Below, piece by piece: positions 2,301 to 60,800 of a DNA stretch of 64,000 nucleotides. Source of the DNA: Daphnia pulex (taxonomy: Eukaryota; Arthropoda; Branchiopoda; Diplostraca; Daphniidae). The notes under the pieces are model-generated. The model was not told the DNA's origin. It was given only the letters and a program-made list of their open reading frames with translations, and searched no databases. Where the stretch lies: NCBI RefSeq assembly GCF_021134715.1, contig NC_060021.1, forward strand, positions 10,820,501 to 10,884,500. The letters are read 5' to 3'. Numbering within the stretch: position 1 is the first letter of the stretch; every line of letters starts with the position of its first letter. The position numbers were made by a program, and so were the translations under genes.

Positions 2301-5300
2301 GTTAAGTCCCGAGCCCAGCCGTCCGACCAAGTCAGCAGCTCTTCTCCTCTCCCGTCGTCTGCGTGAGTGGAACAACGTGCGCGGGCACCACCTCCCTCCA
2401 ATGGGGGGGAAATAAAAAAACGCCGCTTACCTCCTCCCTAGTCTCGAATCGAATTTAAAAAGGAAGGGAAAAAAAATAAAATAAAGTGCGGGAAGGATCG
2501 ACAAATCAATGGCGGAATAATCAGGAAAAAAGAACCAAAAATTATTCAAATGGCTTTCAAGTTGAACGGCGAAAAATGGGCGTCATTGTTGCCAAAAAGT
2601 CGCGGTTGACTCTTTTGCCCCCCCGCGTAATAACAAAGCTCTTTCTAATAGCACCCAAATGTGTAAGGATTCATTAATTAACTGACGTGGGTCCCTTTCA
2701 ACCCCCCCCTCCCCGTTTTACGCCCTTAATATTAAATTCTTCCCTCCTTCCCAAAGAAAAAAAACGGTGGTGAACGGATGAAACCTTACATCATAATAAC
2801 TTTACCAGTTGGTATAGTCTGTATAAGGCGAACCAGCAATCTGGAAAGACCCAATGAGAGATCGTGTTTGTGAAACAGCCAAGACCCCCCTAAAAAAATA
2901 ACCTCCCCAGTTAACAGATGCATAATGAAGGGCTTTTCTAAGGATCGGATTTGTGTCCTCCCGTGAAGAAAGGAGGAAAGTTTCAGTTCTTAATAAAGAT
3001 ATTATTTTGATCAGCGCAGAAGAAGGAGAAGGACGTCTCTAGCTGCAGAACATCCACTTGACAATGGTTAAAGGAGAGCGAAAACGCTCGAGTGGGGGGG
3101 ATCCTACGGGTTTTTCTTCTTTTTCCTATCGGGCGAAAAAGATCCTGTGCGGACGCAGCAGCAGCACCTTTGAATGTGCTAACACTCATCACGGCTCCCA
3201 CTGTGTCTTAATTATCAGGGAGGAGGGTCGAAATAACACTATGCCATGTCTGTTTTGTTCAACATTTATTGTCCATCGATCGTTTCCGCGATGAGGAAAC
3301 AAAAGGTTTCAAAAAAGGGAATAAAAAAAAAACTATTTAGTTTCTAGCCACGACACTTGATAGACAACGGAAGCGGAAGTGAGTTGCCGGGATGCTGCGC
3401 GTGTGGGAGAGTTCGCCCGGTGCGAAACTTAAAAACGTATAGAAATTCGAAACAATTCGTATTAAAAAATTATGCTGAATTTGTTGTTTTATTTTTAAAA
3501 AAGAATTCCGCTTTAGCAGGTCAGCAAGGCAATCGACTTTCACACTTTCTTTATTATTTGTTTCGTTGGGAATTTGTCATCAAACAATGTCCGACAGCAA
3601 ACAAATAACCACACACGGTGGAAGGGAGGGGAGTGATAGTTTGATGGATAATCAATCCCGGAGAAAGAGAGGGGGAGAATCCAGCGGAATTTTTTCGTCG
3701 GAAACTTCCCGCAGGGCAAATTTGCGTGTTTCTTTTCTGTCGCTTAATAAATCCCGGAATTAAAACGAACCCAGTAAAATAAAATAAAAAAAAAACACGC
3801 GGTCCATTATCGACAAACGCCAAGTTACAGAAATAACAAAAATTTTGTCTTTTTTCTTCCCTCCCAAAAATAACCGAAAAATAAATAAAAGAGCTGGTCG
3901 GATAAGAAAATATCTATCTGACGTGCGTCGCTTGTTGATGTCCTGTACAATGGAGAGACAGCGGGCGGGGAAAAAAAAAGAGTGGGAGTAGCTATAGTAT
4001 AGTAGATGTAATATAAGCGTTCGCTTTGAATCGATGACAACAGCTATACTACTACACTTTCTTTTTCTTTTTCTATCTATCCTGTACTATAGTAGTGGAC
4101 TGGGCACAGAGTTGGTTTGTGTAGTAGTTATATAGGGCTACTGTAGAGTCGAGTCTATTGGGACTTGCAACTGCCGAACAACAAAAACGGCGCAGGGGGA
4201 AAAAGAAAAAAAAAGTTATGGCTGAACTGCTGCCCTCCCTCGAAATCCTTTTTTTCTATTCTCTGATGGCGTCCCTACTCTCCGATCAAACCAAGGGGTC
4301 ATACAACAGCGGCCGTTATATAAGAGGGAAAAAAATATCTATCTGAAAAGATCTCAGCTGTTTTGTGAAATCACGTAATTCCGCACAGCCAAAAGCTGCA
4401 GCAGTCAGCATTTGGCGGATGATCGCAATATAGCTCTCACGTTTTTTTTTTCTTTTTTTCATGCCATCGATCAGTTACTTACTTCGTATCAAAGCGCTAA
4501 ATTCTGTTTAATCCTCGGGAAAACTCAACGCCCGGGTAAAAAAGAAATGGAAACATTTTGGGATTCTCCACTAAAATTTCAAAGTCTTCGAGATAATCTT
4601 GTTTTGCTAATCCTTCGACTCTAATGGAACGGGCAACAGAGTCTGCCGATATGAAAAAAAAACGGATCAAGCGGAAATCAGGGCGATGTTGCCAAGGCAA
4701 TCGAATTATTAGTAGTAGTGTGGGGGAGGGTTCAAAACTCCGCACACATTTTGCCAGTCGTTCCCCCCCAACGAAAATTACCTTATCGCTTGTTTTGTTT
4801 TTGTTTCCGGCTTGACGAAAACACCTTTTTTTTTGGATGCGCATCTTCTAAATTCATAGATTTACAAAGTCCACATTATTCTCTATAAATGGATTAGCCT
4901 TAAAATAAGGCGGGCATACACCAGCAGGATGGATGGTCTTTCTTTCTTTTTTGTTTTGTTTCCCTCCTCAGAGTCTCTCCTTTTGGAGCTTCGGAAAATT
5001 CCAAAAGGCTTGACGGTCTCAGCAGTGCGCAGCTCTAGCAGAGAGCCTATACGTTTGATGGCAAGCGGAGCAGAAGAGAATAGTTGGATCAAGCCTAATA
5101 TATTATTAAACCCGTCAGCGAGGCTAATCGAATCATTCCGTGCCTTATATTTATATCTACAGTATATCCCTGGATGTGTATAAGCGCGTACACTGTAGCC
5201 TCTGCTCCTGCTCCTGCTGCTGCCCGTGTCTAAAAAGGCTCAAGTGTATTTAAGTTGCTGGCAACACAAAAGTTTCCAAACACGCCTTTTCACTCCCTGG

Positions 5301-8300
5301 TCTTTTAGCATGCTAATTATTATACCAACGATTTCTGATGACGCCAAAGCGATCAATCTATTCTCGTCGCTAATCAGCGCTCAAAGTTTACCTTTCTTTG
5401 GTAGGCTGCTGCCGTGTCCGTCAGAGTATATCTTCAATCGTTAACTACGACTGAAAGTTGAGCACCGAATCTTCGACGACGATCCACTCGCCAAAATCCA
5501 GCGCTGGATGGTTACGTTTTATTTTCAAATTGCAGCAGCTGGAATACAAAAAAGGCAATAGACTCTTTGCTGCTGCTGCTGTACCAGAAAGTCGTCTAAT
5601 GTATAAATTGCGTAGTGATTTAATTAGACGTTTATGCATAGTATATAACTTAGTGTCGGTCTATCCACACGAGACTTGGGAAGAGCGTCTATATAACCTA
5701 GCATGCTGGAGAGTTTGGTTGGGCCATATAAGACGCAACTTTCAACTCGGCTTCCGCCGTCTTAATTGTGTAACTTGATGGCGGTCGCTTCTCAACACAC
5801 TCTGCGCTCACTTTTGCGCAACGTCCGTTCTCTTATTCTGCGCGCGGGTCCAATTTTTAAAACGATATTTTGATTGCGGCCCACATGCATATCCGTAGTG
5901 TTGAATCATTGCCAAAATGTTGTTGGGCCCCTTTGGTCTTCTATTTGGCCACTTTTGATCCATTGGCCGATTGATGGGAAAGCTGCAAAAATAAGTGGAA
6001 ATATGTGTCGGTGGAGGGGGCGATTGAGTGGCTTTCTATTGCGTGCGTTAAAATGTCACCACAGACCCCTTTTGTCACAAACCTAAAGTCTAGTGTTTGT
6101 TTATTTTTTTACGATCCGTCACTCCCCCCATTTTTTTTTGGGCCCCGGTCGACCCTCCCCCTCCACATTTGGTACCATACTTTTGCCGTGGGGTCGTGTT
6201 TACATAACATTTGAAACTGAATACCTGCATGCCTGTATATGTCAAGCTCAGCTTGTCAGACCTACTTTTTCGCCCTACTGCAGAATATCTAGACCATCTG
6301 AATACCAAAAGTGTTCCATAGATCCAAAGGAAATCATATCATATGGAAAAGGTCAAAATAATTTGCATGGAATTCTCGTGGCTCACAGAGGTACCTCACC
6401 GTTTTAAACTTTTTTTTACAAGGCAATCTGAACTAACCCGGAGCAGTATATACCTTCTGCACTAATGTTTCAATTGGCTACTCAGCACCGACTCAAGTCC
6501 TAAAAACGCGGTTAAGCTTGCCAAAAACGTTTTGTGATTATTTGGGTCGAAAAGGATCTGTGCTATTTGTGAAAAGCACTCGGACGAAAAGAATGTCTAC
6601 CGGTCTCGGCGACTAGATACACACAGCCGCATTAGCTGCACATAAGTTCTTCCGCCGAGCCGGTGGATTGTGCAATATAGAGCCTGGAACGATACACACA
6701 ATATCTATATACGCCCGCTCTTTCCTCATCCTCGAGGATTATTTGTCTACCTGTCCAGCATCACTGGTCGTTTTCAATCGGAGCGTGTAAGCCCCGATAT
6801 TATTTCTCCCGTTCTTTCATATATAATATAGCTAGTCTCTCTCTTCTTCCCCTCCACGCACCTTTATTTACTTTCCTCCCACAGCAGATCGACAGGTGAT
6901 ATTCTTGTTTGTTTTTTTTTGGATCCGACAGGCATGTATAGTTAGTCTGCCTCCGCACAGGTTGCCATCATATAACTCTGCGTCAGCATTTGCTCGACGG
7001 TGTTACCTGTAAACCAATAGCTATAGCGACTCATTTGTGTGCTGGTCTATCTTCTGGGACAAGCGTTCATTCAATGTCCAAAAGGGATTGTCTTGACTGT
7101 GAGCCATATAAACATCCCCCCCCCCTTCTCTGGCTGCTGGATTTGAACCCCAAAAAAGAGAGGGGGGCAAAAGCCAAAAGATTCAAAAAGTGATAACACA
7201 AGTATAAGATGAACCCCTTCTTCTGTCGCGGTTGTTCTGGGTTCAATCCATTTTGCTGGGTGCTGGTCTTTACGGCTCGTCCAATAGCTCACGTTGTTCC
7301 CTCTATAAAAATGTCTTGTAAAAAAAAGGAAAGAAAAAAAGAGCTGGATCGAATCTCATTTTCTATCTGCGCAGCGTCCGTCGTAAAATATAGGCCTCGT
7401 ATATACAGGCACACACAGCAGCCGGTTTTGGTTATATACAAAAAACACAAAAAAATAAAATAAAAATACGAGACACCCAACGTGCTTTGGTTGTATTTCC
7501 TTCTGTCTTTTGGCCAGTCGTAACTTGACAACTAAATAGAAAAGCAAAGTAGAGAGAGACGGACTATTAAAGATTGACGACTTGTTTCGTTCTCAGGAGC
7601 AGCACTGCGTGTGTATCGTGTATCTCCTTTTTCTTCTGAAAAGAGAGGGGGGCTTTAAGTTTCAAACTTACGGATGGACGTGTGCACTGGCAACCATGGT
7701 ATATTGCTCCTGTGTGTTGCAAAGGGGGTTTGTGTGCAACTTGTGTTTTATGGCTGCTACATAGGCCTATATATGGGACAGTCGTAGAAACGACTTGCTG
7801 CCGCCAGATTTTCACAGTTAATAGCCAGAGACCTGTTGGGTGAGGAGGTTCGCTTATTCTGCTGGCGCCGACGTCCAAGTAGTTGAGTGCAGTTCTTGGA
7901 ATCGGTATTGAGCAATCTATCGACTATCTACAATTATTAATAAGGACGACGCAAGTGCTCTTATTCGGACTCGGACTAAATATTCATTGACGTAAGTTTC
8001 CAAATGTTCTGAAATCCAACAAGTAGTATAGTTCTACCATTTTTGAACTTTTCAACAACTTAAATGATTTCAACAGTCTATAGTATCTGTTCAAATGTGT
8101 GGGAAAGCTTATCAATGGACGCAAAGATGTCATTCAAAATTCAAATCCAACAATCAACTTCTTTCAAACCCAATTATTTTTGTCTTCCCTAAATTGGGAT
8201 AGTGTATTGATTATCTTGAAGGTGGATTTTGGATCTTGATACGACATACGATGCGTCCGGGAGATGTAAAATAAAGAACCACAAAAAGGAGGAGACTGCT

Positions 8301-35102: not shown

Positions 35103-35959
35103 AGTATAAACAAAAAAATGATTTGCAAAAAGGAGGGGAAGAAATCTGCATTTTTTTTTCTTATGAAAAATTCTTTTAATTCTTATGTTTTGTGCATTTA
35201 TATTTCAATAATTTTTTGGAAGGTTAAAAAAAAAATACAACTAGTTTTGCGGATTAAACGCCAATTTCTGTCGATGGAATTTTGATGAAATAATAATTAA
35301 TTAATAAAAGAATCACGAATTTAAAATAAGAACACGTAATGCAACATTTTTCGAACGACAACAAAGAGCACATAAGATATCAGGGGTCAAGTAAAAATTT
35401 AAAGTGAACGAGTACAGTCACTACAGTGTGCAGTGTGCTTTTTTTTTCTCCGTAAACTTGACTCAAAATTTTCTATCCTCGTAATGCGTCTCTACTTGCC
35501 AAGCCGTTGTAGCCGCCTTGTTAGTTCAAGAGCTGCAAAAATATCAATCACTCGTGTTTCTTAATTTTTTCACGTGTACGACATGTTATAGCAGTTATAT
35601 TTGAATTTGTTTTTCAAAACACGATTTTGAAGTAGATATAATCTTTGTGTGATCTGGTAAACAAGGTTAAGACTTATAATATTTGAAATACAAAACTGCG
35701 ATTTTAAATGTTATAGGGAATTAGGCCACTAGATGGGTCTGGTCTACGGACTTCAATAGGCGTGATCATGGGCGCTACGCTACGCCGCTACCTATTTTTT
35801 ATTTTGAATATTAAAAATAAATAATATTATTTTAAATATTAATTTTTTTACCTATTAAATAATTAATTTGAAATGTTTATCGATTGCGCCCCTCGACGAA
35901 TTCGACCTAGAATTAAAGAAAGGATTATATATTTTCTAGATTGAAGAAATGCAACGCTG
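35103..35959. other. Intergenic, A/T-rich
   Basis: GNMT 3' UTR followed by A/T-rich sequence without a coding exon. It should contain the promoter of the snoRNA host gene, but no TATA box or other core element was identified. Confidence 0.4.
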
Positions 35960-36982
35960 TCTGACGGTTAGGGAACAACCGACCGAAGCTATCTTCGGGA
36001 AGTGTCATCGTCGTACTAATTCATTGTATTCTCAATCTTCAAACTCCTAACATGTAAGTTGAGTAGTCTTGGTCTGAACACGTGGTTGTGACTTTTTCGG
36101 GGTTTTAGTTCTGTCTAAGTATGTCACTGTAGTTGTAGGATATGATGTTCATTTGCAACTCAGTAAACAAGATGGAATTTATATTTTCTACATTTGAATT
36201 GTTTTTGAGATTATGATGTCTGTCAAAATGTAGTACACAGTAAGGCACTGGCAAGGCAAGATAAATGTGATGTCTAAAGCTATTTTACTTGTTGTTGAGT
36301 TCATATACATTCAATTTTTTTTCCCTACAAATTCTTCAATATCCACTTGTTGATCCACTTTATTATCTTTTATTTTATAATTCTAGGTTGAAATCTTACG
36401 TACCAGGTAATGGACAAGTGCAGTGGGTTGGAAGAATAAGGGATGTGGTGCCTTGTAGATGAAATATTTGGAAGGTAAATCAATTTTCTTGTTGAATGTG
36501 ACTTAATAGACCTGATGATCCTAGGATTACAATGAAATTTAGTAAACCTAAATTAATATCTTGATTAAATCTCTATCGCAATTTACTGAAGTTTAGACCT
36601 AAGCAGTATCGATCTGAAATGGTTTGTAGATTTTCATTATCAATCTTATCTAGGTTGATTCCTGACCTCACTTGGTTTTGCACTAGCTGTATTGTATCTT
36701 CCAGAATTCGCTGGCTTCTATGTAATTGAGGAATTGAGGTTGGCATTGTTAATATTGTAGAATATGCTGCTAGATTTTGCTGAAGATATTCTTAGGACAC
36801 CTAAATATGTACCCTGATTACTAAATGTGCTGAAAGTATCAAATGACTTGTCGACATTTTGGTCTAGTCCTCGCCTTAACGTTATTTCGTTTTTACAGAG
36901 AAGATTCCATGCCTAGACATTTCGTGGAGGATTGATCTCGACTGTTACGGCTATGGAGGAGGTATAGTCATGTTTACATTTG

Positions 36983-37118
36983 CATTTGAGCCTCAGAGTC
37001 ACCGGTTTAACGCACATGTAGTATTCCGGTGCTAGAGGATCTCATAAATTAAACGTCGAACCACTTATGCTCGATCTGTATTTATTGCAGAGGTTGATCA
37101 CCTCGGTTTGAGACAATT
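36983..37118 (+). ncRNA. Candidate H/ACA snoRNA in host intron
   Basis: The first hairpin has a strong stem, CACCGG paired with CCGGTG inside CCTC/GAGG. A possible H box AAATTA and a 3' hairpin closed by CGAACC/GGTTTG follow, with ACA at 37113-37115. The 3' hairpin's internal spacing is irregular for a pseudouridylation pocket, so the call is less certain than for the duplicated H/ACA pair. Confidence 0.4.
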
Positions 37119-37269
37119 TGTTTTGACTTTACAGGAAGATTAAACATTTTAATGGTGTTTATTTTTATTTTTTTGCAGGCAGTGGGTGTGCATTACACTA
37201 GATGAGATACAATCATGAAGGTGTTTGCGATTCTTAGGTAAATGGACAGTTTTTATGGTTTCTTTTGGA

Positions 37270-37338
37270 TTTTTGTGATGAACAACAGTTTCCTGTGTTT
37301 CTGACAACCATGAAGACCCACTCGAGTCCCTGATAATT
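37270..37338 (+). ncRNA. Box C/D snoRNA, copy 1 of 3
   Basis: Box C GTGATGA at 37275-37281, D' CTGA at 37301-37304, C'-like TGAAGA just after, and box D CTGA at 37330-37333. It lies in the intron between host exons ending at 37237 and starting at 37407. The sequence before D' (GTTTCCTGTGTTT) and before D (ACTCGAGTCC) is kept in all three copies, as expected of guide elements. Box C/D RNAs direct 2'-O-methylation at the base paired with the fifth nucleotide upstream of D or D'. Confidence 0.85.
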
Positions 37339-37555
37339 CAGGCTTTTTAATATAATTTAATCGGCTGTAAACAAATATTGACGATTTGTTTGGTTCGTTT
37401 ATTCAGATTGTCTTGTTTAACAACCGCCGTCGATTGTTGAGCTACTGGGCCAAAAACTGGAGTTTCATTTTCTTTCGTTTCGATATGTTTGATGCTGGTG
37501 ATTTCATGATCTACGTAGTAAGTAGAGAGAATTACTTGGAATGTTTAACGTAAAT

Positions 37556-37640
37556 TGAAATGATGAGAACGCTTAAAAGCATTTTCCGAGTTCCATGATG
37601 ATTCATTCTGCCTTCCTTTTGATCTTTAACTGAGTTGACG
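37556..37640 (+). ncRNA. Candidate box C/D snoRNA
   Basis: Box C ATGATGA at 37560-37566, a C'-like ATGATGA near 37596 and box D CTGA at 37630-37633, in the host intron 37518-37686. A D' CTGA is missing (CCGA at that place) and the terminal stem is weak. The support is its boxes, its size (about 75 nt) and its position in a host intron otherwise without a guide RNA. Confidence 0.5.
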
Positions 37641-37772
37641 ATATCAGCGTTACAAACTGGTGTTATAGATTTATTTTTTTCTGTAGGTAATGTGGTATTG
37701 CTTCTTGGTCAACGTCATCGGGAATCCGAGGAGTTCATTTTACACAAGGTAAATTTTTTCTAATGCGAGACT

Positions 37773-37905
37773 CGGCAAACAGGTTTGTTTAAGGAGACAA
37801 TTGTACGCCAGGTTTCTTATTGTCCTGTTTGCAACATTAAAGCGAGTCCCTGAGGCCTTTCTTGCTTCGTTTTTTTTAAGCAAGGGGTTGGGCAACCGGA
37901 CAAAT
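37773..37905 (+). ncRNA. H/ACA snoRNA, copy 1 of 2
   Basis: The 5' hairpin is closed by GCAAACAGG/CCTGTTTGC (37775-37783 with 37824-37832). The H box ACATTA is at 37834-37839. The 3' hairpin has outer stem GTCC/GGAC and apical stem CTTGCTT/AAGCAAG, with unpaired pocket strands between. The ACA box is at 37900-37902, about 13 nt below the apical stem, matching the usual 14-nt rule. It sits in the host intron 37749-37941. H/ACA RNAs guide pseudouridylation. The target was not identified. Confidence 0.8.
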
Positions 37906-38029
37906 TCATGAAAATAATTAGTGTGTTTTTTGTGTGTTCAGATGGACTGGTTTATTGTTCGGTGTTTTTTTTCTGGCGCCATCTTCATAGGATATTAGGT
38001 AATAGCTCAATATGTTAACGAATTAAACA

Positions 38030-38105
38030 TAAATATCATGATGAACAATTGTTTCCTGTGTTTCTGACAATTATATGAAGACTCACTCGAGTCCCTGATA
38101 GATTA
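38030..38105 (+). ncRNA. Box C/D snoRNA, copy 2 of 3
   Basis: Box C ATGATGA at 38038-38044, D' CTGA, C'-like TGAAGA, and box D CTGA at 38095-38098. Both guide stretches match copy 1 (one base differs before the second, ACTCACTCGAG against ACCCACTCGAG). The flanks AAATATC and GATTATTT can form a terminal stem. It lies in the host intron 37999-38175. Confidence 0.85.
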
Positions 38106-38404
38106 TTTATCTTAATCTGCCTTTGAGCTGCTGCTTTCCGCACCTTAACGATGATTTTATTTTGTCGTCTTTTAGGTTGCTCGGTCGGTTGTCTTGGAGT
38201 ACTTGGCGAGGATGTTATTGGGTATGTTGTGTTGTTTGTTGGTTAAATTTTTCTTATCTAATTTAATAATCTGGTATATCTAGGTCTGACTACGGTCTAT
38301 TGGATTGTAGGAGATTTTGTTTATATACGTTTTCTTGATAAATCCCTGTTGTCGAGGTAAGAGTGGTTCCATTATTGCGTTCTTTGGCAAATGATATTTT
38401 GTAA

Positions 38405-38517
38405 AGAAATTGCTGAACACCAGATTTCTTTTTGTTCAGTTTGCAACATTAAAGCGAGTCCCTGAGGCCTTTCTTGCTTTGTTTTCTTAAAGCAAGGGGT
38501 TGGGCAACCGGATAAAT
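38405..38517 (+). ncRNA. H/ACA snoRNA, copy 2 of 2
   Basis: From the H box ACATTA (38446-38451) onward it is nearly identical to copy 1, including GTCCCTGAGGCC and AAGCAAGGGGTTGGGCAACC. The 5' hairpin differs in sequence but can still pair (GCTGAAC/GTTCAGT). The terminal box reads ATA instead of ACA (38512-38514), a tolerated variant in some H/ACA RNAs. It lies in the host intron 38357-38548. Confidence 0.75.
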
Positions 38518-38635
38518 TTCAATATTATCATCTGATTTTCTTTAATAGGGATATATGCGGTGGGACGCTGGATTTAATAGTGTCGGCCTAAGGAGTCCTG
38601 AGGTAATAGAGAGATTGATGTCAAACCTTCATTGT

Positions 38636-38705
38636 AAATTTTGTGATGACAAATGTTTCCTGTGTTTCTGATAACTATGAAGACCCACTCGAGTCCCTGA
38701 TAGTA
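38636..38705 (+). ncRNA. Box C/D snoRNA, copy 3 of 3
   Basis: Box C GTGATGA at 38642-38648, D' CTGA at 38667-38670, C'-like TGAAGA, and box D CTGA at 38696-38699. Both guide stretches match copy 1. It lies in the host intron 38603-38762. Confidence 0.85.
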
Positions 38706-38861
38706 GATAGACATGTTGGTGTAAAGAGATTAGTTTTCTCCTAACGTTATTCCATATTTTAGGTGTGTTAATTTTCGATCCGTTGCTTAACGTCTGTGGG
38801 ATGGTATGGAGTTATGAAACTTGCACAAGGTAATTTGAGTTCATATCACTTTAAATTGTTA

Positions 38862-38936
38862 CCAGTCTGATGAAAACGAGTTACCGTTTGACCTTAATGA
38901 AACCATTAATATTGGCTGTATAAAATCTGAATGTCT
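38862..38936 (+). ncRNA. Candidate box C/D snoRNA
   Basis: TGATGA core at 38868-38873 (preceded by C, not the usual purine) and CTGA at 38927-38930, in host intron 38830-38998. The guide-like stretch before D is GCTGTATAAAAT. The terminal stem is poor and no clear D' is seen. Its position, in a host intron otherwise without a guide, supports it. Confidence 0.4.
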
Positions 38937-39043
38937 ACGCTTAGACATTTACTTTGTGTTTTATAAATCATTCTAAAACTTTTTTTTTTTTCATTCAGTT
39001 TGTCGCAGTTTTGAAGGTCTTTGGATTTGGAGCGAAGTTTATT

Positions 39044-39979
39044 GTAAAGTTCCGATACAGCAGTATGGACGAAAATGTTACTGGGAAATTAGTGTCATTA
39101 TGGGAGAAATTAGTAACAATAGATAGACTTATTATCTGTTTTTGATTCTGTTTCCTTTTCCAATTGCATAATACAACATGATCACTATGTGTGTATAATC
39201 TGCCTGCTTATTTGATTATTTCATTTCTAAAACTGCTGTTCTAACAAGATGCTTGAGTTGGTTGTAACCTATAAACTCGAGTTTAAAGCTTACTTAGGCT
39301 GTTATGCACCTAAATTTTCTAATGGTACATGTGATTATTCATTTAATTATATGCCGAGTCAGATTGGGTTGTGTGGAAAGGATTTTTCACCTCCACCATC
39401 GTTTATGATTGACTTTACATTTGCTGTTGCCTTGTAGTATGTAGCCTAGTAGAATGCTACAATGAATAGGAACACATTCCGAATAACTGGCAGGTCTACC
39501 TTACCAACACTGGGTGTTATCACTTTCAGCAATCTATTCTCCAGCACTGTTGCCCAGGTGCTTAAACGTCTGGGATCACTTGCAGACAACATGAACGGAT
39601 ATCTGTCTTGATTGCCTTCTCCTCAGTGTAGAAGTTGAAGTGGCGTTCAATATCACCTTGGGGATTTCGTCTTTTTTGATGTGTGATACTGCGTGTGGCT
39701 TTTCGATGAAATTTTTCATGGAGAATATTACGTGAGTATCAAAGTTATTTGTTACCTTTGTTTGTCAGTTCTTTTCAATTGAGTGTCACCGAGTTACAGC
39801 GGACATTTCATGTTACTTTTAAAAAACGTTTCTTCTTTCTGACACTAGACAGCATAGCCTTTGATCATTTTTACCTGTCAGAATCAGTTTAGTTACGTCA
39901 ACTTTAAACATCTCTGTAGATATTTCTCAATGCTACTTCAAAAAAATTTTGGGTGATAACTGTCAGTTTTTGTTTCAGC
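39044..39979. other. Downstream part of the snoRNA host locus or intergenic
   Basis: A/T-rich sequence with a few splice-like sites (for example an acceptor near 39530) but no exon that can be defended. The open frame at 39249-39437 has no recognisable domain. Confidence 0.3.
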
Positions 39980-40368
39980 AACAAAGCTCACTTGCTAGAT
40001 TTTTAATAATATGTTTTTTTTTCTACTTCCGGTTTTCCTATTTCAGTCAGTAGTTCAGTAAATATTCATTCGACGCACAAAATAACCACATATTCGTGAT
40101 CCTCGTCGAATTTGTGGTAAAGTTCATGTTTTGTTTTGTACGTTTTCGTACTTCCGGTTTTGAAAATTTTCCTGAACTATAGTTCAGGAAAATTCTCGAT
40201 TTTGGCCAAAATCTGGATTTCGTTTAAATTACATCTAATCGACCCCAAATTTCACGTAGATCACGAATATTTGGTTTATTTTGACGACAGCTCAATGGTA
40301 GAGGCACTATCGCTTACTTCCGGTATACTTCCGGAAAATTTGCATAAAACTAGCAAATGAGCTTTGTT
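39980..40368. mobile_element. Fold-back MITE, about 389 bp
   Basis: The left terminus AACAAAGCTCACTTGCTAG (from 39980) is the near-perfect inverse of the right terminus CTAGCAAATGAGCTTTGTT (to 40368). Further inverted blocks lie inside: AAAATAACCACATATTCGTGATC-like sequence at about 40079-40101 against its inverse at about 40259-40282. The centre is a perfect 30-bp palindrome. CTTCCGG repeats occur on both arms. There is no transposase frame. It is therefore a non-autonomous fold-back element. No clear target-site duplication was seen, so the superfamily is unknown. Confidence 0.75.
40165..40194. repeat. Perfect 30-bp palindrome at the MITE centre
   Basis: The left half reads AATTTTCCTGAACTA and the right half is its exact reverse complement, with no spacer. 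It marks the symmetry axis of the surrounding inverted-repeat element and could extrude as a cruciform. Confidence 0.95.
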
Positions 40369-43269: not shown

Positions 43270-44320
43270 TCAATCAATCTTGTATTTCAGCAATCTTTCA
43301 ACACATCCAGAGAAATACTTCAGAACTTCGGTGTATAGTTCAAAGCAGCTTAAGTAGTGGTGACATAGTCGGGAGAATTGCTGACGTAATACATATGAAC
43401 CTTGGAAGAAGTAGACGTCTTCTTCTGTGTAGTACTTGGGGGCTGCGGTGTTGTAGCTAGGTGTAGAGCAGGTCGTGGTGTAGTAAACTGGAGCATCAGT
43501 GTAGTATTTCTGTTCAACGTAGCACGAAAGGGCAGCTTCTGTGTAGTAAGTCGGGACTGCGTAATACTTGGCCGCCTCAGTTGTGGTTGTGTAGATCGGG
43601 GCAGAACTTTGGCGCTTCGGTATAGTATTCAACCGTTTTGGTGGAGTAACCAGCGGGAGCCTCGGTGTAGCAACTGGGAACAGAGTAGTATTTAAGTAAT
43701 TCGGTGCAATAAGTAGCTGAGAATAGAGTTATACTTAAGGTGTAATAGGATGGGGCAGCATGCGTAGTAATGTAGTACTCCATCGCCTAGACGGTGTAGT
43801 AATTCAGGGTAGAGTAATACTTCAGGGCGTCAGTGTAGTAACTCAGGGCAGAGTAATACTTCAGGGCGTCAGTGTAGTGGCTCGGGGCAGCGTAAGTTGT
43901 GGTATAAAACTCCGGTGCTTTAGTGGTGTAGTACTTGAAGACCTCGGTGAGGGAACTAGTCGTTGCGTAAGTTGTGTAGGAAGGTGGCGGCGTTGCGGTT
44001 TGGTTTCCGCCATACCAAGGAGACATCGCTACACCAGTGGTCAACCCAGCCATCAACGATACCACACCAAACAGGAGCACGACGCCATAGTTTACTAAAC
44101 AGTAAATAAATTTAAACATTAATATTACATATTAAAAAGCATATTAACAAATAGAAAAAACATAGAATTGATACAAAACTCAATGTAAAAATAAAAATAT
44201 TTACCCAAAATTGCGAATGGATTACACGATGAGGAATGCAGCTGGTGACAGATAGGGCACTGCAGTTCGGGCACAACTTCTTTTTTTTTTAGACGACTCC
44301 TTTTACGCACAGTAAAACTT
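43270..44320 (-). pseudogene. Tyr-rich repeat gene, copy A (decayed)
   Basis: Read on the minus strand, it codes repeats of the type YYTTTYAAPSHYTDALKYYS after a hydrophobic leader (VNYGVVLLFGVVSLMAGLTTG). The family looks like the secreted Tyr/Thr/Ala/Pro repeat proteins common in Daphnia; its function is unknown to me. Exon 1 ends near 44216 (donor GGGTAAAT) and exon 2 starts near 44100 after TTTACTGTTTAG. The place of the start codon, ATG in copy B, is TTG here. At about 43787 an in-frame TAG stands where copy B has AAG, and near 43615 five bases are missing relative to copy B, shifting the frame. The promoter remnant lacks the TATA box and initiator present in copy B. Pseudogene status is inferred from these lesions. 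Confidence 0.65.
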
Positions 44321-45367
44321 CGGGACGTAGGTGTAGTAGCTCGGGGGAGCGTAGGTTGTAGTGTAGTACTTGACCGCTTCAGTGTTGTAGTAATGCAGGG
44401 CCTTGGTGTAGTAGGTAGGGGCAGCATACATAGACGTGTAGAATCCCGGTGCCTTAGTGATACTTGGGAACCTCGGTGTAGTGAACAAGGCGTGGTTGTA
44501 ATAGGCGGCTTCTTCGGTGTAGTAATTAGGGACTGCGGTGTTGTAGCTAGGTGTAGCGCAGGTCGTGGTGTAGTAAACTGGAGCATCAGTGTAGTATTTC
44601 TGTTCAACGTAGCACGAAAGGGCAGCTTCTGTGTAGTAAGTCGGGACTGCGTAATACTTGGCCGCCTCAGTTGTGGTTGTGTAGATCGGGGCAGAGTAGT
44701 ACTTTACCGCTTCGGTGTAGTATTCGACCCTTTTTGGTAGAGTAATCAGCGGGAGCCTCGGTGTAGCAGCTGGGAACAGAGTAGTATTTAGGAAAATCGG
44801 TGCAATAAGTAGCTGAGAACAGAGTTATACTTAGGAGAATCGTTGTAGTAGGATGGGGCAGCATGCGTAGACATGTAGTACTCCGTCGCCTTGGTGGTGC
44901 AGTAACTAAGGGCAGAGTAACACTTCAGGGCGTCAGTGTAGTGGCTCGGGGCAGCGTAAGTTATGGTACAAAACTCCGATGCCTTAGTAGTGTAGTACTT
45001 GTAGACCTCGGTGCAGTAACTGGTCGTTGCGTAAGTTGCTTTTGGGTAGTATGGCGGCGGTGTTGCAGTTTGGTATCCGCCATACCGAGGAGACATCAGT
45101 ACACCAGTGGTCGACCCATCAATCAACGATACAACACTCATGAACAGCATACGACGCCTTATTAACTAGACAGTAAACAAATTCAAGATTAATATTCTAT
45201 AAGAATTTGCATATTAACAAACAGAAAATAATTGGCATTAATAGAAATCTCATATGTAACAAACAGAATATTTACCCATGGATGCGAACTGGCAATAAGG
45301 TGAAGAAGGCAGATGGTGACAGATAGGGCACAGCAGTTGTTGCCGTGTCGGAGATGCTCACTCGACT
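44303..45367 (-). pseudogene. Tyr-rich repeat gene, copy B (promoter intact, frame broken)
   Basis: A minus-strand tandem partner of copy A with the same repeats (YYTEAVKYYSAPIYTTTTEA and similar). It keeps a TATA box, an initiator and an ATG at the end of exon 1 (near 45279), joined to exon 2 at about 45168. Net one extra base in exon 2 compared with copy A brings a stop after about 16 codons. The repeat frame could start only from an internal ATG giving MLFMSVVSL. A further extra base in an AAAAAGGG run near 44738 shifts the frame again. The final codons and TAA stop fall in the decayed promoter of copy A. Sequencing error in homopolymers could explain some lesions but not all. Confidence 0.6.
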
Positions 45368-57858: not shown

Positions 57859-60800
57859 TTATTGCTGACGTCTGTTGGCAATGACCGTTTCGGGCGCCCG
57901 ATAAGTGATACCAAAAATGTCCTCCTGATAACGCCTCTCGTTCTGCGCGATTGAAAAAAGAGAAAATCGTCATTACCTCTCTTATGTTTGCCTTCTTCTA
58001 ATTGACAAAACAAAGGATCCATACTCGCAGTTGCATGAGAAAGTCATCCGATTCTTCGGCATTCAAACTGCCGGCTTTCTGAAAAACCATTCGCAAAGTG
58101 CTGGCCACGTCTTCGGCCATCGCGCAGTCGCCACACACATAAAAATGACCCATTTGCTGAGTCAACATTCGATAAACTAGCGGGGCGGCTTCCAGCAACT
58201 TGTCTTGGACATAAGTCTACATTCGAAAAATGATATCAGTCTGGAAAACATATTTACAAAATTTGAATTATGCAAACAATATACCTTTCGAACGGGCGGG
58301 TGGCGGGATAGAGCCAAAAAGGCGTAGTCTAAAATTCCCGAGGCAACCATGGTCGATTTTTCTTCGACGAACAGATCGCAATCCGGAGAACGGTAGCCCG
58401 TGAACAACAACATGGGCCCCATCTCCTTCCCTTCTAAAGTTGCATAACAGGTTACGGCGGCGATTACTTTAATGAGATGAAACTTGGTAATTAGGTTTGT
58501 TAACTAACTCGATTGAAGGGCTTGTTTGTGTTGCCAAAAGCCACGGAAGGGAGCCACACCGGTCCCCGGACCGACCATAACCACTGGTCTTTCAATTTCG
58601 GTTGGTAAGTGAAAATTGGGTGCGCTAATAAACAAAGAAAACAGGGCGTCAATATCAAGTTTTGGGTGAATCAATAGGGATGAATCCCCGACCTGCGAAA
58701 GAAGCACTGGATTTTATCGCCTTCGTTCGCCTGAGACAGATAACTGGAGCAAACGCCGTAGTGCATGGGACCTTCGCCACCTGTCCATTTCGTGGATGTA
58801 AAGATAAATGTGAGAACGATGACTGGCAAAAAATGAAGTTGCAGAGTAAATGAAAATAAAAAAAGTACCTTGCGTTTTGAAGGCGATGACTGCAGCGGTA
58901 ATATCGATTTGGAGTGGATCGATCAGCGGAGATGAGGAGATACTGTAGAAACGAGGTTGAAGTAGAGGAAGTTGAGACACGAGTAGAGCAGCGTCTATGG
59001 CAACTGAAGGGAATTCTAAAAGAGTTTCCAGCAGATGAGGAAAGCCCCAGTGTTTCCAATCTTCGTATTCACTAGCGTCCTAGGTTAAAATAAGGCACAA
59101 ACAAATTCAATCAAATTAAGAGGAGCATTCAGAAGATAGCAATCGAAATACGGTTGCAAGAAGCTGGAGGCGTCGCTTGTCTTCCTCGGAAGAGGCGTGA
59201 GCTGCAAGCAGGGCCAGAAGGGTCTGCGACGCCGGAGTTGTGATATCCAGATAATGGGACAAGAGCGTCCGAAAACTGCAAGCTGGCAGGCGTTCTTGAT
59301 TCTGCCACGTTTTCCCACCATCTACTGCCAATCGAGGAAGAAAAAATAAATATCAGGCCATTCAAATATCTCGTCCGCTCCGGCTGTACCCAGATGCAAT
59401 AAGTTTGGTTAAAATAATACATCGCTCTTGAAAGGAGGCTATCTGTAGAACTGCACTGTGAGTGCACTGTAATGAGATGACATGATCACACCCCAGTGAC
59501 CGTGGCCGCAAAAGCAGCCATACTCAACTTTTCACCAGTACGTTCTTATACGACATTGCTAAGTTGTCAATTAGTATCCCACAGCAGGCTGCCGACCCAA
59601 GTGCACTGCACCCCGAAGCAAAAGTTCTTAGCCTCCTCCCCTCTTATATTTCATTTAGAAACTTGTGAGCAGCGCAAACGTCATCCAACACTAACTAAAG
59701 AAGCAATGGAAAGGACCATCTTCGTCGTTGTCGATGGCTAATGCCGGTCATCATTTCTCTGCGCATCGCACTCAACTTTTGTTTGCCTTTCACAGCAGTA
59801 AACAAATTCCGAGAATGTCGAGCGAATATCAAGAACGCCTTACGCAGTATTACCATACGGAGTCGTAACTTCCGTATGGTAATTCAATTAGATTCCCTTA
59901 CTTGTCCTATCGACCTTGCGACAATACCTTTCTGCTCTGCAAGTGTTTGCAGCTGGAGAGGGCCGTCGGGTGGCAGGGTAGAATTGATGCCAAGTCGATC
60001 AATCAGTCCAGTCACTAGGGGCTGGTGGTTGACAGCGAAAACGCCAATGTGATCACCCGGCTCGTAGGTGACCGCCGACGTCGCCGAGTTGCGAGTTCCG
60101 TTGATCCACTGGCTGGTGATTTTCAGTCCAACGTGAACAGTTTTACGACCATCAATGTCCTTTGCTAACGTCACGTTAAAGACGACCGGGCATTCGGTGA
60201 CGTTCTTGGCGTGCGTCTGCGACAAGCCTGACGAGGCGATAACAAGATAAAATTTCATTGTCTAGGAAAAGAAACAAGAAACAAGGGGGAAAAACAAGAG
60301 CAGCCGCTTCAAAAGCCGAGTTGATGTAGAAGCCTGTACCTGCAACAATATCGAGGATTGGTTTCTCCTGGGAGTTGACGACAGCGAAGCGAACCGTGTC
60401 CGAAGTAATAAGATCTCTGCGCAATGTGGCACTGACGTCGTCTATATTGACGTCGTCTTCCAAACAAAAAGTCTCGCAAGCCGTCTAAAAACACGTTTCG
60501 AAAATTTCAAATGGCATCGTTATCCAAAATCTAAAACTAAGATGCAGTTTGTGTTTCATGAGGAATAACCGTCAACTTCTCATTAACTAACAAGTGCTCT
60601 TTTTGAAGGACGATAAAATAACGAAGCAGCATTCAGTCCGATTGATAATTACCATCCGGAGCCCAAAGGGAATGTGAAACTTCCGACACCCAATTTCTGA
60701 TTGTGACATTTGTCATTTCGTAATCAGTCTCAAACTGTCAAAGGAGGATGATTCCGCCAGAACGAACTTGGCTTCACCGTCACAAACTTGTCAAATAGTT

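Follow-up and report, generated by a model that had tools for sequence, protein, structure and literature searches.

Non-coding genes that host small nucleolar RNAs (snoRNAs) in their introns are known from flies and vertebrates, and hosts of the Uhg/SNHG type have an RNA polymerase II start of the 5' terminal oligopyrimidine (5' TOP) kind and an unstable spliced RNA. Here we describe a locus of Daphnia pulex that we read, with a probability of about 90%, as a Uhg/gas5-type non-coding snoRNA host gene. It lies in a stretch of 64,000 nt (C5:10820501-10884500 of the genome), called the window below; coordinates given without a locus name refer to the window.

Passages of one study describe Drosophila Uhg genes with up to 16 introns, one snoRNA in each and no open reading frame (ORF), and report that Myc binds four of the seven Uhg genes, at or near E-boxes (PMC4430873). 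Uhg4 hosts seven snoRNAs, according to an excerpt of another (PMC9710044). As far as these passages go, Uhg1-5, 7 and 8 are like the present gene in being non-coding and in having many introns with snoRNAs in nearly every one. Unlike them, the present gene has two guides in one intron and two introns without a recognised guide.

The vertebrate gas5 and gas5-like hosts also have short exons and an intronic guide array, as described in part of a chicken study (PMC2653536). In the same part, the gas5-like host is a hotspot of local snoRNA expansion, with both cis- and trans-duplication of snoRNAs, and carries ten C/D RNAs, while the present host mixes C/D and H/ACA RNAs. Related guides are also shared with the snoRNA-bearing RPL3 and RPL4 genes of human and chicken, as partly documented, and of this genome (loci L058, L059 and L028); those hosts code for proteins, whereas the present one does not. 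Among the matches listed by a literature title search, no title concerned a snoRNA host gene in Daphnia or any other crustacean.

Guide RNA candidates and predicted exons of the proposed host gene

The gene is predicted on the + strand with 12 exons; upon inspection of the splice sites, AG precedes exons 2-12 and GT follows exons 1-11. The interval 36962-38998, which opens with the first base of intron 3 and closes with the last of intron 11, had been described in the initial annotation as an array of duplicated guide RNAs in the introns of a non-coding gene, and this description is supported. Three C/D copies and two H/ACA copies in GT..AG introns were found both as direct repeats by machine search and by BLAST of the region against itself. 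The exons within the interval are 46-111 bases long, as had been stated, and they do not resemble one another: the BLAST comparison produced no self-match at E 1e-3 other than the array repeats. The element listed earlier as a C/D candidate (37555-37626) resembles C/D RNAs of the snR52/SNORD83 type. The two RNA classes were said to alternate; both are indeed present along the array, but the alternation is not strict because further guides sit between the repeated ones.

We observed several elements beyond those described initially: an H/ACA RNA similar to ceN100 in intron 3, at the start of the interval, a C/D RNA in its last intron (38860-38938, called cdX below), two C/D RNAs in the intron that precedes the interval, an intron of 62 bases that holds no recognised guide, and further copies elsewhere in the genome. 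With these, ten guide candidates are spread over nine of the 11 predicted introns. Intron 2 has two of them, and no guide was recognised in intron 1 (333 bases) or intron 8 (62 bases, 38222-38283).

The longest ORF in the spliced exons 1-12 has 47 amino acids, a length equalled or exceeded in 445 of 1000 shuffles; the initial annotation had likewise described the exons as not open in one frame. Several features of a Uhg/SNHG-type gene are found together here: guide candidates in nine of 11 predicted introns, no coding capacity, and exons that are less conserved than the guides. Inspection by eye revealed no distinct pyrimidine-tract start. ARAGORN detected no tRNA in the window.

Copies of the proposed host and possible origins of the repeated guides

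The genome searched for guides and for host copies has 133,188,837 bases in 13 contigs. H/ACA copy 1 was detected at six places and C/D copy 1 at eight, all of them within the window locus, two further host copies (L026 and L027) and one gene on C2 (L028, RPL4). L026 is an inverted copy about 155 kb away with all ten guide candidates present. L027, at a distance of 3 Mb, lacks a stretch that begins where H/ACA copy 1 ends and closes with the end of H/ACA copy 2, and the exon before its decayed last C/D RNA has lost the splice donor.

The initial claim that exons diverge while guides are held constant was borne out by the comparison of the window with L027, where identity was 94.7% in guides (610/644), 85.2% in exons (495/581) and 88.2% in the rest of the introns (869/985). 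These counts exclude 37907-38762, which contains the block missing in L027 and the decayed C/D copy 3. The difference between guides and exons is significant (Fisher p 2.4e-8), compared to p 0.09 for exons versus introns. With all elements included, guides are identical at 659/706 positions, exons at 530/627 and introns at 957/1105; C/D copy 3 alone has 48/60. Exon 9 was taken one base short in the former counts, the first exon model was used in the latter ones, and the 47-amino-acid ORF is unchanged.

The same comparisons bear on two other explanations of the locus. If the exons encoded a fast-evolving protein, the guides would be passengers of a coding gene; the splice-site structure and the existence of three copies would suit such a gene. 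However, the longest spliced ORF is matched by shuffled sequences, the exons are no better conserved than the introns, and indels between the copies break the frame (apart from the exons that L027 lacks, the three copies differ by exon indels of 1, 2, 4, 5, 7, 8, 9 and 28 bases). We therefore give this explanation next to no credence. A slightly better, still very small chance is left to the idea that the array copies are decaying, functionless repeats derived from snoRNAs. The L027 counterpart of C/D copy 3, with its lost boxes and the lost splice donor nearby, and the ATA in place of ACA in H/ACA copy 2 are what decay would produce. On the other hand, the C/D copies of the window and L026 retain intact C, D' and D boxes and an invariant D' guide, and guides change less than the DNA around them.

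Identity is uneven along the three host copies. Between the window and L026 it is 64-69% in the 5' part (35950-36510) and 98-99% in segments from intron 3 on, climbing within 36000-36960 from about 65% to 98-99% inside one gene. The comparison of the window with L027 gives 88-93% for the 5' part and 91-93% for the middle, then 76-77% at 38519-39110. For 35950-36053 alone, the window is 69% identical to L026 and 88% to L027, and over the 650 bases upstream the identity to L026 is 43%. Such discordant values fit an exchange of sequence between inverted copies, and the jump in identity suggests gene conversion.

The only CACGTG aligned across the window, L026 and L027 is the E-box of intron 1. 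Its conservation in all three host copies recalls the E-boxes of the Uhg genes, as a hint only. The window has nine CACGTG words versus 10.7 expected by shuffling, which taken alone is weak evidence.

The array repeats are far beyond chance, with BLAST E values from 8e-16 to 6e-36. C/D copies 1 and 3 are 92.3% identical over 65 aligned positions, copies 1 and 2 88.7% over 62, and copies 2 and 3 86.1% over 72. The H/ACA pair has 90.5% identity over 105 positions by BLAST and 80% over 146 in the ungapped direct-repeat search, with diverged 5' hairpins. In all cases the similarity is restricted to the guide RNAs and their immediate edges.

How the copies arose is the only point that separates the host-gene reading given here from the proposal, made in the initial annotation, that whole exon-intron blocks were duplicated in tandem within the host and that their exons later diverged beyond recognition. 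Since the similarity ends at the guides, a duplication of whole blocks is not shown, and a block is absent as a unit solely in the comparison with L027. The order H/ACA-C/D-H/ACA-C/D speaks for the proposal, as does the L027 copy without one block, H/ACA to H/ACA. Its single H/ACA RNA combines a 5' half like copy 1 with a loop like copy 2, as would be left by an unequal exchange between the two copies. Against these observations stand the BLAST result, which shows no similarity at E 1e-3 within the region except at the guides, and the RPL4 gene, which holds both of these RNAs, so that repeated copying of the guides alone is possible. On balance, block duplication appears a possible but rather doubtful origin.

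On the + strand of the window, the ten-base word GAGTCCCTGA is confined to the three C/D copies, where it falls at the D box, and the two H/ACA copies, where it lies in the 5' arm of the 3' hairpin (positions 37324, 37844, 38089, 38456 and 38691). It is present in both RPL4 relatives as well (L028 4330 and 4784). The sharing may be due to chance, a shared target or exchange.

Guide identities and predicted rRNA targets

A permissive Rfam scan of 35900-39300 gave ten matches up to E 5. A covariance-model search had been suggested in the initial annotation as a check; it returned one strong match, to ceN100 (E 4.6e-10), and none at a gathering score. With 60 of the 80 bits needed, the RNA is a relative of ceN100 (RF01607) rather than a member under the Rfam rule. 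It occurs at eight places in the genome, two of them in RPL3 genes, and the eight sequences fold as two hairpins with changes on both sides in two of 31 pairs. The weak matches carried the names SNORD58 (36775-36838), snR52/U83 and similar C/D families (37543-37630), SNORD18 and two others (C/D copy 1), and ceN110 (H/ACA copy 2). The candidates 36511-36592 and cdX were recognised from their boxes and by comparison; the former has no Rfam match up to E 5, and its identity is 81/82 between the window and L027 and 76/82 between the window and L026.

Guides and boxes are strongly retained among the aligned copies. The snR52-type guide TGCCTTCCTT with its D box is invariant in 7/7 copies, two of them from RPL3 genes, and so is the cdX guide ACGAGTTACCGT with its box in 7/7. 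The guide CTTAGGACACCT is found in nine of 12 aligned SNORD58-type rows; the other three are polyubiquitin rows, seemingly of another C/D RNA. C/D copies 1-3 of the window and L026, the first C/D copy in L027 and the relative from RPL4 all have a C box RTGATGA and a D box CTGA near the ends, a D' box and a conserved guide upstream of a D or D' box, while C/D copy 3 of L027, with C and D' boxes lost, does not pass as a C/D RNA. Their D' guide GTTTCCTGTGTTT is present in 9/10 rows, the tenth being a SNORD18-like RNA. Assignment of C/D copies 1-3 to SNORD18 itself was rejected, as these copies read TTTCCTGTGTTT, departing from the guide complementary to 28S GAAACACGGACC.

For the H/ACA RNAs of the RPL4 type, the H box (ANANNA) was seen in 6/6 rows and ACA in 4/6, with ATA in copy 2 of the window and of L026. 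In their consensus fold, which has two hairpins, four of 42 pairs carry changes on both sides and several pairs are broken. These copies likely, though not securely, belong to the H/ACA class. No target pocket could be made out in them.

The rDNA of the genome itself was not found by pattern and DNA searches, a miss that shows little; as a consequence, eukaryotic rDNA contained in bacterial metagenome-assembled genome (MAG) records was used as reference. Two of the references, L007 and L008, were taken without prior Rfam scanning. In the IMG/VR loci L001-L005 no rRNA was detected at gathering scores, and an 18S pattern had no IMG/VR match. All rRNA targets below are predictions.

We take the snR52/SNORD83 target, with the help of a chicken table, to be 18S AAGGAAGGCA, with the guide adjoining the D box. 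The snR52-type guide could form 11 bp in one small-subunit (SSU) rRNA reference (L009), nine in a second and seven in a third. The target word itself is whole in one of the three SSU references, has a near form in a second and is absent from L010. The cdX guide matches GCGGTAATTC with 10 bp, including two G-U pairs, in all three SSU references; this word is presumably the snR77/HBII-135 place 18S-U-588. The available part of the chicken table gives 18S-U-588 as the snR77/HBII-135 site (PMC2653536). A snR77/SNORD65 site at 18S GCGGU would be expected for cdX. C/D copies 1-3 pair with AACACGGGAAA over 11 bp, including one G-U pair, in 3/3 SSU references and would perhaps methylate 18S CAACACGGGAAA. 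Their D guide (GAGTCC before CTGA) had no convincing target in the rRNA references. The SNORD58 target is presumably 28S AGGTGTCCTAAG.

A number of these results weigh against the host-gene reading and its targets. At gathering scores Rfam had no match in the whole window, and no guide candidate reached its threshold; a pipeline that relies on Rfam only would probably miss all of them. The predicted 3' hairpin of the RPL4-type H/ACA RNAs pairs part of the ACA box, which in copy 2 reads ATA. The target references come from unrelated eukaryotes, and none of them contains the complete SNORD58 target word, the best being 11/12 letters in L007. When 60 shuffled guides were scored on L010 as a control, the guide-rRNA duplexes were at or below the 95th percentile: 10.5 versus 10.5 for the RPL4-type D' guide, 9.0 versus 9.5 for cdX, and 7.0 versus 11.0 for the snR52 guide, although the latter scored 11.0 in the SSU of L009. 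Besides, a horse table lists no canonical target for SNORD83 in the part available (PMC12288042).

Table 1. Predicted exons, guide RNA candidates and the intron 1 E-box of the host gene (window coordinates)
Feature	Position	Strand	Remarks
Putative promoter-proximal stretch and exon 1	35950..36053	+	Donor CAT/GTAAGT (slash, splice junction); start site putative
CACGTG E-box, intron 1	36079..36084	+	Kept in 3/3 host copies
Exons 2-7	36387-36474, 36899-36961, 37179-37237, 37407-37517, 37687-37748, 37942-37998	+	Predicted from splice sites
Exons 8-12	38176-38221, 38284-38356, 38549-38602, 38763-38829, 38999-about 39110	+	Predicted from splice sites; 3' end approximate
C/D-box candidate, intron 2	36511..36592	+	C box TGATGA, D box CTGA
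SNORD58-like C/D RNA, intron 2	36772..36840	+	Guide CTTAGGACACCT; Rfam SNORD58 20.5 bits, E 0.62, gathering 42
ceN100-like H/ACA RNA, intron 3	36984..37117	+	Rfam ceN100 60 bits, E 4.6e-10, full length, gathering 80
C/D copy 1, intron 4	37271..37337	+	D' guide GTTTCCTGTGTTT; relative in RPL4 intron, L028:4735-4794
snR52/SNORD83-like C/D RNA, intron 5	37555..37626	+	Guide TGCCTTCCTT before TTGA; weak Rfam matches
H/ACA copy 1, intron 6	37764..37906	+	H box ACATTA, ACA box; relative in RPL4 intron, about L028:4244-4393
C/D copy 2, intron 7	38034..38102	+	Repeat, boxes; absent from L027
H/ACA copy 2, intron 9	38376..38518	+	Terminal box ATA, not ACA
C/D copy 3, intron 10	38640..38704	+	L027 counterpart lost C and D' boxes
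cdX, C/D RNA of possible snR77/SNORD65 type, intron 11	38860..38938	+	Guide ACGAGTTACCGT before TTGA

Relatives at housekeeping genes and a second host family

All ten candidates have a relative at an RPL4, RPL3, polyubiquitin or ATP-synthase-alpha locus. The suggestion of a lineage-specific snoRNA host may fit: in the search of this genome, the exons of the host found matches solely in the host's own copies.

In L028, two of three scanned stretches match Ribosomal_L4, one of them also its C-terminal domain, and the third matches nothing. Its introns contain the same H/ACA RNA, the same C/D RNA and, in addition, a SNORD18-like RNA at L028:5017-5095 (33.7 bits, E 0.001, gathering 41). L058 and L059, with one stretch scanned in each, are RPL3 genes that hold ceN100-like and snR52-like RNAs. 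The polyubiquitin locus L060 has SNORD58-like RNAs and a relative of the candidate 36511-36592 (L060:3463-3558, 75% over 97, E 3e-10). The ATP synthase alpha locus L061 has two relatives of cdX, one in an intron, the other lying downstream of the coding region by about 2.8 kb. We also observed in L060 three C/D-like RNAs (4650-4735, 5045-5130 and 6225-6311) that share AATATGTACCCTGATTAC with the SNORD58-like ones and differ in the first guide.

A second host family was found on C6. It consists of L056 and L057 (G000:C6:5126001-5144000), an inverted pair 99.2% alike over 6.3 kb, and L055 (G000:C6:4911501-4919500). In L056 and L057 the guide order is SNORD58, ceN100, snR52, cdX, as in the window, while of these four L055 has relatives of SNORD58 and ceN100 only. 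There is no ORF of at least 70 amino acids on the guide strand in L056 2400-4935 or L055 2096-5947. The chance of four guides falling in one order is 1 in 24, and so common descent of the second family and the window host is supported modestly only. Two elements of L056, at 2979-3054 and 3941-4005, were also found in RPL3 introns.

With respect to the direction of copying, the human SNORD83A/B RNAs lie within RPL3 introns in the account available (PMC3412847) and chicken U18 within RPL4 introns in part of the chicken study (PMC2653536), which makes introns of ribosomal protein genes plausible older homes. In sponges, conversely, the same account places a SNORD83-like RNA in RPP0 (PMC3412847); this location, as well as the C/D copies not being SNORD18, weighs against a ribosomal-protein origin. 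The Rfam scores agree with a housekeeping source in two families. For SNORD58, the polyubiquitin RNAs score 33.4 and 30.6 bits compared to 23.9 in L056 and 20.5 in the window, and for snR52 the RPL3 copies score 29.2 and 27.1 bits against snoZ13_snr52 (gathering 47) compared to 20.5 in the window. The ceN100 scores point the opposite way (60 in the window, 48.3 in L056, 45.8 and 43.8 in RPL3), and RPL3 is not favoured as the source of this RNA. Since the scores agree for SNORD58 and snR52 and not for ceN100, copying from housekeeping genes to the host is likely, not proven.

Elsewhere in the window, nested inverted repeats at 39980-40368 (arms of 51 nt at 75%, 24 nt at 83% and 23 nt at 91%) with repeated CTTCCGG words are perhaps a small transposable element. 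On the - strand, 59884-60261 encodes a FAD-binding stretch with three PDB matches, all nitric oxide synthases (E 1.7e-6 to 2.3e-5), and 43270-45165 has repetitive ORFs rich in tyrosine and threonine, of the YYTEA..KYY type, which we take to be typical of Daphnia.

In a host gene of this type, one RNA polymerase II transcript would be spliced, with exons that carry no message, and the introns would be trimmed to box C/D and H/ACA RNAs. These would join methylation and pseudouridylation ribonucleoproteins, respectively, and mark ribosomal RNA. The gene appears to have been filled by copying of guides between hosts together with local duplication of some guides, and the latter would raise guide dosage.

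More broadly, though with odds that we put a little below even, both families could be non-coding collector genes built by repeated insertion of guides whose source was the introns of four or more housekeeping genes (RPL4, RPL3, polyubiquitin and ATP synthase alpha), with the shared guide order kept as exons turn over and with partly inverted pairs exchanging sequence.

For annotation, the locus indicates that some ten likely guides of a single arthropod gene can escape detection at Rfam gathering scores. A crustacean host in several copies, whose guides still have relatives at housekeeping genes within one and the same genome, would make the origin of a host gene traceable step by step. If the proposed history is true, the collector families are a living record of how snoRNA host genes are assembled.

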